Below, in pieces: positions 29,641 to 32,002 of a stretch of 41,408 nt of DNA. Both the position numbers and the translations under genes were made by a program. The stretch comes from Pelagibacteraceae bacterium (GTDB lineage: Bacteria; Pseudomonadota; Alphaproteobacteria; Pelagibacterales; Pelagibacteraceae): NCBI GenBank assembly GCA_008638225.1, contig VTPP01000010.1, forward strand, positions 1 to 41,408, given 5' to 3'. The notes under the pieces are model-generated. The model searched no databases. It saw only the letters and a list, made by a program, of their open reading frames with translations, and was not told where the DNA came from. Positions within the stretch are counted from its first letter, which is position 1. The number at the start of each line of letters is the position of its first letter.

Positions 29641-30306
29641 ATGAGTATTTATAATAATAAAAAAACATTGTTTTTTAAAATTAAAAATAAATCTCTAAAA
29701 GAATGGAAAAAATATACAAATCATCCATTTGTAATTAAGTTGGGCAATGGGACCTTGCCATTATCCTGCTTTAAAATTTATCTTCTACAAGATTATATTT
29801 TTTTGCAAAAATTAATTAAGATACTTTGCTTATCAGCTTATAAAGCAAATACTACACTTGATAGAGATCGATCTTTGAAATTTATTATGGGTATTAAGCA
29901 TGAGTTGAATCTTCATATAAAATATTGTCGGAAATTTAATATTCCTAAATATAAAATACTTGCAACAAAAGAAAAGAGACAAAACCGAACCTACACTGAT
30001 TATGTTTTAAACATAGGAACCAAAAAAAGTAATTTAGAATTATTTATTGCTCTATCACCATGTATCATAGGGTATGGTGAGATTGGTTATAATCTTAGTA
30101 AAATAAAAAATTGGAAAAAAAACAAATACTCCTCTTGGATTAAAATGTATTCTTCAAAAGAGTATCAAAGCATAGCAACCAAAAATATTAGGTATTTGGA
30201 TGAATTATTTACTAATAATAATAAAAATAGTTATAAGTCATTAGTTAAAATTTTTAAAAAAGCTTCTTTGTTAGAAGCTAATTTTTGGGAGATGTGTCTA
30301 TCATGA
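29641..30306 (+). CDS. tenA: TenA-family protein (thiaminase II / aminopyrimidine hydrolase-like)
   Basis: A 221-residue helical TenA/PqqC-family protein. TenA hydrolyses aminopyrimidine breakdown products of thiamin to release HMP for salvage. Key TenA positions appear kept: Asp51 in LLQDYIFL, Cys141 in LSPCIIGYGEIGY, Tyr170 in WIKMY and Glu212 in LLEANFWEM. By my remembered alignment to Bacillus TenA, the active-site Tyr47 is Phe54 here. SAR11 bacteria depend on thiamin precursors, so a salvage role is plausible but unproven. The gene sits between nth and the PfkB-family kinase, with an ATGA overlap to the kinase. A ThiE/TenI-like gene lies 3 kb further on. Confidence 0.75.
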   Translation: MSIYNNKKTLFFKIKNKSLKEWKKYTNHPFVIKLGNGTLPLSCFKIYLLQDYIFLQKLIKILCLSAYKANTTLDRDRSLKFIMGIKHELNLHIKYCRKFNIPKYKILATKEKRQNRTYTDYVLNIGTKKSNLELFIALSPCIIGYGEIGYNLSKIKNWKKNKYSSWIKMYSSKEYQSIATKNIRYLDELFTNNNKNSYKSLVKIFKKASLLEANFWEMCLS

Positions 30307-31232
30307 AAGTTGTCGGAGTTGGAAATGCAATCGTTGATGTGATTTGTAAAGTGAACGATGAATTCTTAATACAAAATAATTTAACAAAAAGTACAATGAA
30401 ATTAGTAGATGAAATAGAATTTAAAAAACTATTATCAAGTTTAACTATTGCTGAAACTGTTGCCGGTGGCTCAGTTGCAAATACTATGGTTGGCTTATCT
30501 CAATTGGGGAACAATGTATCTTTTATAGGAAAAGTTAATGATGATAATCTTGGTAATAAATATGAAGAAAGTTTAATCAAAGAAAAAGTAACGTACTTTT
30601 ATAAAAAACGAAAAGAAACTATCCCTACGGGTACTTGTTTAATTCTAATCACTCCTGACTCAGAAAGAACTATGTGTACTTTCCTTGGAATTGCAGGAAA
30701 AATTAATGAACAAGATATTGATGAGTTAGCAATAAAACAAAGTGAACTTGTTTTTTTAGAGGGTTATTTGTGGGACGAGGGAGAGCCTAAATCTGCATTT
30801 TCAAAAGCATTTAAACTAGCAAATAAAACAGCAATGTCATTATCAGATAAATTTTGTGTAGAGCGACATAAAGAAAGTTTTTTAGATTTAGTGAAAAACA
30901 AATTAGATATTACATTTGCAAATGAACAAGAAATACTTCATTTGATAGATGCCAACTCATTCGCTGAAGTTATAGAATTTGGAAAAAATCTTGGGAAATT
31001 ATTAATTGTTACAAGATCTGCAAAAGGCAGTATTGCAATATTTAATAACGAAGTATTTGAGTGTGAAAGTCAAAAAAACCTTAAATTAGTTGATTTGACC
31101 GGTGCAGGAGACTTGTTTGCTGCAGGATTTTTACATGGCTACATTAACGAAATGTCTATTCAAGAAAGCCTTGAAAAGGGAACCGAGATGGCTTCTAAAG
31201 TAATACAAAAAATTGGAGCCAGGTTAAATTAG
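30303..31232 (+). CDS. PfkB-family kinase (adenosine kinase-like)
   Basis: A 309-residue ribokinase/PfkB-family sugar or nucleoside kinase. N-terminal MKVVGVGNAIVDVICKVND, the glycine-rich VAGGSVANTMVGLSQLG, and the C-terminal anion-hole/catalytic motif DLTGAGDLFAAGFLHGY with the catalytic aspartate. The substrate cannot be read from sequence; similar alphaproteobacterial genes are often called adenosine kinase. Starts at ATG 30303 (overlapping the tenA stop); the upstream in-frame ATG at 30285 is inside tenA. It converges with the ArfA-like gene with a 9-base overlap. Confidence 0.85.
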   Translation: MKVVGVGNAIVDVICKVNDEFLIQNNLTKSTMKLVDEIEFKKLLSSLTIAETVAGGSVANTMVGLSQLGNNVSFIGKVNDDNLGNKYEESLIKEKVTYFYKKRKETIPTGTCLILITPDSERTMCTFLGIAGKINEQDIDELAIKQSELVFLEGYLWDEGEPKSAFSKAFKLANKTAMSLSDKFCVERHKESFLDLVKNKLDITFANEQEILHLIDANSFAEVIEFGKNLGKLLIVTRSAKGSIAIFNNEVFECESQKNLKLVDLTGAGDLFAAGFLHGYINEMSIQESLEKGTEMASKVIQKIGARLN

Positions 31233-31334
31233 TTTTTTTCTTTTAAAACTCCCTTTTCCTTTTTTGGGTTGTATAATTCTTTTTTTGTACTTAGCGGTTC
31301 TTAAATCTTTAGCTATGATATTCTTTTTCTTCAT
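31224..31334 (-). CDS. arfA: ArfA-like alternative ribosome-rescue factor (36 aa)
   Basis: A 36-codon gene with ATG at 31334-31332 and TAA at 31226-31224, starting MKKKNIIAKDLRTAKY. It then contains RIIQPKKGKGSFKRKK. The KKGKGS(Y/F)xRK block preceded by R-V/I is the hallmark of ArfA, which recruits RF2 to ribosomes stalled on mRNAs lacking a stop codon. It is highly basic, as in ArfA. The last codons can form a weak AU-rich hairpin (AGTTTT...AAAACT, 31250-31231), comparable in position to the cleavage hairpin of E. coli arfA, though weaker. Placed 11 bases after the winged-helix gene and overlapping the end of the PfkB-family gene. The assignment is by motif only. Confidence 0.7.
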   Translation of the reverse strand: MKKKNIIAKDLRTAKYKKRIIQPKKGKGSFKRKKLI

Positions 31335-31345
31335 ATTTTCTACTA

Positions 31346-32002
31346 CTAGTATCTGAGAAAATATTTTCCTTCTTTGATTTCTATAAAATTTTTATCTTTT
31401 AACTTTGTTTGTATCTTTTGACGCAATCTATAAAGATGTGTCTCATAAGTGTGTGTATCGACCTGATCTGAGTAAGACCAAATATCTTTCATTATATCTT
31501 TTTTGGAAGCTCCATCTTTTTTTCCAAATAGATAAACAATAATATCCTGTTCTTTTTCCGTAAGTTTTACACTTTTCCTTCCTATCGCTAACGTTCTTTT
31601 ATTCTTATCTAAAATGTAGTGTCCAATTTCTACTTTTGTTTGGAAGTGAAATTTAAATTTTAAAATTGATAACTTAATAATTTTTTCTAAATCAAAAAAG
31701 TTAATAGGTAGCTGTAAAAAAGTGCTAAATAAATTATCTTTTTTTAGTTCCTGAAAGTTCTTAGGATCGGCTGATAAAAATACTTTAGGGAACATTATTT
31801 TTTTAACTTCTGAATTTTTTATTTTTTCCAAATTATCTAAGAAAAATAGGAATACAAATCCGTCTTGAACATTATAATTTTTAAAAAGTAAGTTTACATC
31901 TTTAAAACTCTTTAATTGATTAATATTATAATCGAGCTTTTGCTCACTAATGCATTCAAAAAAAACATCTGAACCAACAGTAACTATTGAATAATTTTGC
32001 AT
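31346..32002 (-). CDS. atypical response regulator with OmpR-type winged helix
   Basis: A 218-residue protein. The C-terminal part (about 125-218) is an OmpR/PhoB winged helix: KSVKLTEKEQDIIVYLFGKKDGASKKDIMKDIW, then the recognition region THTYETHLYRLRQKI and the wing EIKEGKYFLRY. The N-terminal 120 residues look like a degenerate receiver. Asp56 (FVFLFFLDN) may correspond to the phosphoacceptor, but the acidic pair is incomplete and the conserved lysine position is Leu99 (LQLPINFFDL). Phosphorylation is therefore doubtful, and no histidine kinase gene is near. It is divergent from an L,D-transpeptidase gene, a possible target. DNA target unknown. Confidence 0.75.
   Translation of the reverse strand: MQNYSIVTVGSDVFFECISEQKLDYNINQLKSFKDVNLLFKNYNVQDGFVFLFFLDNLEKIKNSEVKKIMFPKVFLSADPKNFQELKKDNLFSTFLQLPINFFDLEKIIKLSILKFKFHFQTKVEIGHYILDKNKRTLAIGRKSVKLTEKEQDIIVYLFGKKDGASKKDIMKDIWSYSDQVDTHTYETHLYRLRQKIQTKLKDKNFIEIKEGKYFLRY

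Follow-up and report, generated by a model that had tools for sequence, protein, structure and literature searches.

Background

Does a frame of 36 codons in a SAR11 bacterium encode a ribosome-rescue factor of the ArfA type, in a class of bacteria for which arfA has been recorded as missing? A survey published in 2024, which covered 15,259 genomes, found the gene in none of 2,376 Alphaproteobacteria and described it as limited to the Gammaproteobacteria, some Betaproteobacteria and 10 species of the Bacillus subtilis group (PMC11633108). The survey used DNA profiles derived from annotated genes (PMC11633108), which may be the reason that an arfA gene of SAR11 escaped it. The frame considered here lies in a 41,408-nucleotide stretch of contig VTPP01000010.1 from a Pelagibacteraceae bacterium, referred to below as the window, and an earlier note on this DNA had read its product (here P0001) as ArfA-like. 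We consider it very probable, from comparisons at the level of sequence, that the gene encodes a minimal, RF2-recruiting ribosome-rescue factor of the ArfA type. By the published survey this predicted factor is new to the Alphaproteobacteria, and tail variants among its relatives link it to DUF7230 (PF23876), a Pfam family whose function is unknown. As regards SAR11, the result speaks against the survey's zero for the class; no description of a chromosomal ArfA from SAR11 was found in a literature search that most subscription journals lay outside.

The reading frame and its neighbours

The list of open reading frames and the translation bear out a real frame of 36 codons, running from an ATG at 31334 to a TAA at 31224-31226 (Table 1). 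The earlier note had placed the frame without naming its strand, which is the minus strand. Its product is strongly basic and contains KKGKGSFKRKK, the motif as previously described, and the 9-base overlap with the gene of a PfkB-family kinase is also there, 3' end on 3' end, the PfkB stop codon lying at 31230-31232. On the other side, 11 nt separate the stop of the winged-helix gene from the start of the arfA-like gene. Scans of the whole window found no Rfam families or tRNAs, and promoter-like sites were not more numerous than in shuffles. The winged-helix protein itself is ~28-44% conserved outside the genus, far below the 36-aa product encoded downstream of it, and no Pfam family matches its N-terminal portion.

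Table 1. Features of the arfA-like locus, in window coordinates
Feature	Position	Strand	Evidence
arfA-like gene, MKKKNIIAKDLRTAKYKKRIIQPKKGKGSFKRKKLI	31224..31334	-	Frame, Pfam, E. coli alignment, conservation, selection
N-terminal module NxxAxxLxTxK[YF]xxR, residues 5-21	31272..31322	-	Alignment to E. coli ArfA residues 14-30
Basic tail KKGKGSFKRKK, residues 24-34	31233..31265	-	Alignment
Winged-helix protein (Trans_reg_C, PF00486), upstream of arfA-like gene	31346..32002	-	Pfam
PfkB-family kinase (PF00294), convergent to arfA-like gene	30303..31232	+	Pfam

Resemblance to ArfA

ArfA (PF03889) is the sole match of P0001 in Pfam-A (E = 1.1e-5), with a scored stretch that covers positions 23-41 of the profile only and a score of 25.2 bits, the curated cut-off being 25.5 bits. 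A six-frame search of the whole source genome with PF03889 finds this locus alone (E = 2.6e-4). In a phmmer search of solved structures, the six sequences reached by P0001 at E <= 10 all belong to ArfA, although the best has an E of only 0.15. The earlier note would have given up the assignment for a sub-threshold profile score joined to poor alignment outside KKGKGS; the score is 0.3 bit short, and residues 3-33 of P0001 align ungapped to residues 12-42 of the 72-residue E. coli ArfA chain, with 13 of 31 positions identical. In the sister genus g10 the cut-off is exceeded, at 31.4 and 30.6 bits in the six-frame search (G014 and G026) and at 32.8 bits for the protein of L013. By these scores, P0001 is at the edge of the ArfA model and its relatives are inside it. 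NCBIfam returned nothing for P0001, a silence that is uninformative because the E. coli ArfA segment is also unmatched there.

Twenty-five aligned SAR11 proteins, P0001 included, all match ArfA at E <= 0.001, and none of them matches another Pfam family. Invariant among the 25 are N5, A8, L11 and K15 and, within KGKGS and the basic residues that follow it, K25, G26, K27, G28 and R32. These proteins offer a means of judging whether P0001 might be a small basic protein of some other family, ribosomal-protein-like or nucleic-acid-binding, whose likeness to ArfA is compositional only. A Lys-rich sequence of low complexity and a profile score just under the cut-off would suit such a protein, but the lack of any other Pfam match among the 25 and the conservation of N5, A8, L11, Y16 and R19 outside the KKGKGS part speak against it, and we hold this origin to be very unlikely.

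The ArfA reading draws further detail from the alignment to the E. coli protein. Phe25 and residues 27-30 of E. coli ArfA have roles in the recruitment of RF2 (PMC8012679, PMC6299226), and the basic tail of P0001, with its KGKGS (for the role of which see PMC6299226), is expected to occupy the empty mRNA channel. Y16 of P0001 aligns opposite F25, a place held by Y or F in all 25 SAR11 proteins and in 80 of 80 viral proteins of the KGKG type. P0001 is 9 residues shorter at its N-terminus than E. coli ArfA. Two features weigh against the ArfA reading. P0001 has K9 opposite A18, a residue whose change to Thr inactivates the E. coli protein (PMC8012679), and it ends only a few residues past the place that matches the cut of E. 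coli ArfA to 40 residues, a form that is inactive (PMC8012679).

Two other small rescue factors were compared. Francisella ArfT is similar in its length of ~40 aa, its dependence on a release factor and its apparent freedom from truncation control, and differs in having KKGGSTNKK for KGKGS and in lacking a hydrophobic residue opposite F25 (PMC6299226); membership of P0001 in that family is rejected for its KKGKGS and Y16. Bacillus BrfA is likewise small and RF2-recruiting with a basic C-terminus, but is unrelated to ArfA in sequence by its description (PMC6881298), and this assignment is rejected as well, the Lys-His motif of BrfA (PMC6881298) being absent from P0001, which contains no His.

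Conservation, selection and gene order

The arfA-like gene is present in all 6 genomes of the genus and, at E up to 0.1, in 121 of 147 genomes of the family, a count whose weakest rows include alternative-tail forms and chance matches. Among contigs from named genomes there were 401 relatives, and the 80 loci retained from these are all labelled as Pelagibacteraceae, Pelagibacter or Pelagibacterales. The arfA-like frame has a pN/pS of 0.21 across 38 loci, indicating purifying selection, as compared with 1.11 and 1.61 in the strand's other two frames and with 1.23, 0.37 and 1.38 in the frames of the opposite strand; the value of 0.37 presumably comes from the antisense frame whose third positions are lined up with those of the gene. 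A short frame in AT-rich DNA might of course arise by chance, and 58 frames of at least 20 aa overlap the 5-kb stretch around the gene, but a conserved frame under selection at a conserved site in many genomes refutes this explanation, to which we assign a practically negligible probability.

The conservation of the frame next to the winged-helix gene in other SAR11 genomes, proposed by the earlier note as a test, was found in most relatives, where the convergent PfkB gene, the arfA-like gene and the winged-helix gene upstream of it retain their order. In genus g10, the gene is found behind an unrelated gene of ~500 codons. Whatever is upstream, the spacing is tight. All 38 loci have their upstream stop at most 12 nt ahead of the arfA start or at most 4 nt within it, and the gap from stop to start is -20 to +8 in all 80 named loci, with a 4-nt overlap in 47; for 6 of the 80, whose flanks are short, the judgement used frames of at least 20 codons. 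Most relatives show the upstream stop either overlapping the arfA start or directly adjoining it. The first codon of a few relatives is CTG or AAA/AAT, and the true start of these (e.g., L014 and L029) must be one or more codons off. Relatives differ in frame length (33 to 45 aa), and there is no conservation at the frame end.

The gene can also be lost. In 13 of 13 f1 genomes that have the PfkB locus and no canonical arfA-like gene, PfkB adjoins the winged-helix gene, with no arfA-like frame between the two. Several complete SAR11 genomes lack the gene by such a clean loss between these neighbours, and the gene is therefore dispensable, a point that counts against the rescue-factor reading.

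Regulation

The arfA mRNA of E. coli is mostly cut, and tmRNA keeps the amount of product low (PMC8012679). The earlier note had proposed a comparable control here, with a weak AU-rich hairpin spanning the final codons, and neither part of this proposal is borne out. Folding over the end of the gene is no stronger than in shuffled sequences (z = 0.02 for 140 nt and -0.43 for 50 nt), no terminator-like site was found at the gene, and an mRNA-truncating hairpin or terminator is accordingly rejected. Control by truncation is also opposed by a stop codon directly after the basic tail (following residue 36) and by the variability of the frame end noted above. Since the frame has its own stop after the tail, an active protein should form without truncation. 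The cut mRNA and the hydrophobic C-terminal end of the E. coli system are not features of the P0001 gene, and we do not count them as defining ArfA because in E. coli they concern regulation and not activity (PMC8012679). Translational coupling probably links expression of the arfA-like gene to the gene upstream, given the overlapping or abutting stop and start codons, and such coupling is a likelier means of control than a hairpin.

Partner genes and predicted mechanism

The source genome encodes two proteins of the PF00472 family, which we read as RF1 and RF2, and no ArfB was found in it. Among 23 genomes of the SAR11 order, 21 have exactly two PF00472 proteins and 2 have one, all in frames of ~340-370 codons; in none of the 23 was there a third, short PF00472 protein, whereas G376, from another family, has a third one of 144 aa. 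By this count, ArfB seems to be absent from SAR11. SmpB is present in all 27 genomes tested, the source genome among them, and tmRNA in 25 of the 27, two of these in the source genus. No tmRNA was found in the source assembly (45 contigs, 95% completeness) or in G003, both of which are fragmented assemblies, and its lack from the source assembly is probably an assembly gap. As to the earlier suggestion of a rescue route besides tmRNA, SmpB is thus in the genome itself, and tmRNA is in 25 of the 27 genomes tested but was not found in the source assembly.

The RF2 of the source genome keeps, by alignment, the E. coli residues V198 and F217, which form the pocket for F25 of ArfA (PMC6299226). This pocket bears on a further possibility, namely that P0001 is an ArfA-derived basic peptide that enters the mRNA channel and does not recruit RF2, acting for example in hibernation or stress and being coupled to the winged-helix regulator. 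The shortened N-terminus and K9, together with a Leu at the F25 place in one alternative-tail subclade (L092 and its kin), could be taken in its favor. Yet the N-terminal module, which would dock RF2, is the very part that is retained across all forms, the aromatic residue opposite F25 is kept throughout the SAR11 and viral KGKG-type proteins, and the RF2 pocket is in place; we regard a peptide of this kind as improbable. Profile, conservation, selection and partner genes all side with the ArfA identity.

For an RF2-recruiting factor, the following mechanism can be envisioned. A ribosome would reach the end of an mRNA that has no stop codon, leaving the mRNA channel empty, and the basic tail KKGKGSFKRKK would occupy that channel while the N-terminal module docks RF2, with Y16 entering the V198/F217 pocket. 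The docked RF2 would then free the peptide without a stop codon. We infer the binding to RF2 and the ribosome, the release of the peptide and the physiological role from sequence comparisons. The resemblance to E. coli ArfA comprises the small size and basic nature of the protein, the KGKGS tail followed by R/K, the aromatic residue predicted to dock RF2 and the presence of RF2 in the genome. The differences are that P0001 has 36 aa, with its own stop directly after the tail, so that active protein would be made without truncation, unlike that of E. coli arfA, and that the SAR11 gene has no supported hairpin, is probably coupled to an upstream gene and belongs to bacteria in which ArfB is undetected. 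In SAR11, with tmRNA and SmpB, an ArfA-type factor would be the only known backup.

Alternative tails and DUF7230

A profile of the SAR11 proteins matched several alphaproteobacterial proteins over positions up to 25 only. These have the same N-terminal module, and KKxYxRK replaces KKGKGSFKRK, as if GKG had been deleted; a profile of the SAR11 proteins (A1) and one of the alternative-tail proteins (A2) align with 98.2% probability, GKG again missing. DUF7230 is similar to the SAR11 ArfA-like proteins in this N-terminal module and differs from them in lacking the GKG of KGKGS (KKxYxRK). The DUF7230 cut-off is exceeded by L059 and L086 and equalled by L052, and membership of P0001 itself is rejected, there being no PF23876 match. 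The two families meet in several proteins: one viral protein with KGKGS has E values of 6.9e-9 for ArfA and 0.1 for DUF7230, and L217 and L045 match both, one of the two matches being weak in each. L092 and L349 match neither family well and have weak hits to DUF4322 only. No paper on DUF7230 was found in the literature searched. As a separate observation, the PHROGs phrog_6310, phrog_2701 and phrog_20887, all of unknown function, are matched by L059 and L052.

Profile A2 finds matches in 35 of 387 genomes of the class, including ArfA-type ones and some chance frames, and PF03889 alone in 9 of the 387, 7 of them above the cut-off and 5 of these 7 outside SAR11. Among 148 genomes of the order, 90 have the canonical gene (counted from profile matches that cover the KGKGS columns, part of the sequences having been read), 43 have an alternative-tail form (31 in f155 and 12 in f1, of which 8 and all 12, respectively, were read), some of these forms matching DUF7230, and 15 have none. 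There is no clear case of both forms together among these 148 genomes; the only second matches, in G062 (E = 0.008, in an 897-aa frame) and G555 (8.1e-4, in a 313-aa frame), look like chance. In the sister SAR11 family f155 (L245-L251 and L350), the module is joined to another basic tail, and its gene follows one that we take to be short-chain-dehydrogenase-like from its GAARGLGQKY motif.

Relatives in phages

Relatives are encoded by at least 201 stretches among the 600 listed from viral contigs (IMG/VR). KGKGS is present in 79 of the 80 viral stretches kept (L159-L238), which encode 62 distinct proteins of 33 to 71 aa, and eight genes of the window are matched in none of the 80; simple contamination with host DNA is therefore unlikely. 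The arfA-like gene of L168 and L203 comes after a clamp-loader gene and before a phage translation-repressor gene, with a second clamp-loader gene between the latter two in L168; L163 appears to be similar. Relatives also occur in the named Pelagibacter phages HTVC027P and HTVC034P and in Caulobacter phage Cr30. Gp30 of HTVC027P has already been published as a phage ArfA (PMC12753301), as has the ArfA of Citromicrobium phage RXM (PMC8953757).

These findings, together with the tail variants, lead us to a broader reading, which we put forward tentatively, at somewhat less than an even chance. There might be a large and mostly unnoticed superfamily in Alphaproteobacteria and their phages, with ArfA at one end, that consists of a conserved RF2-docking module with exchangeable tails for the mRNA channel. 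Most Pelagibacteraceae and many marine phages would have KGKGS, DUF7230 and its relatives KKxYxRK with GKG deleted, and a sister SAR11 family other basic tails. In SAR11 there might be one such gene or none per genome, coupled to a varying upstream gene, replacing ArfB and free of tmRNA control, and phages might bring a copy along by which ribosomes stalled on decaying mRNA are recycled. The results suggest a testable function for DUF7230 and point to ribosome rescue by phage-encoded factors as something widespread in the sea. The SAR11 protein, as an ArfA that is minimal by nature and whose tail varies among its relatives, would also be a good subject for separating the parts that recruit RF2 from those that sense the empty channel.

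P0001 reached only one weak place in phages by tblastn, and less Lys-rich viral relatives used as queries found more, perhaps because a low-complexity filter masks the Lys-rich part of P0001. Many rows of these phage searches, for Acinetobacter, Salmonella and others, are weak, with E above 0.01. One weak row, gp04 of HTVC204P, was rejected, the module being absent when the sequence was read; gp18 of HTVC115P has the N-terminal module only. In Cr30 (L243, ~1290-1620), the deposited gene, which is shorter or in another frame, covers the ArfA-like frame only in part.
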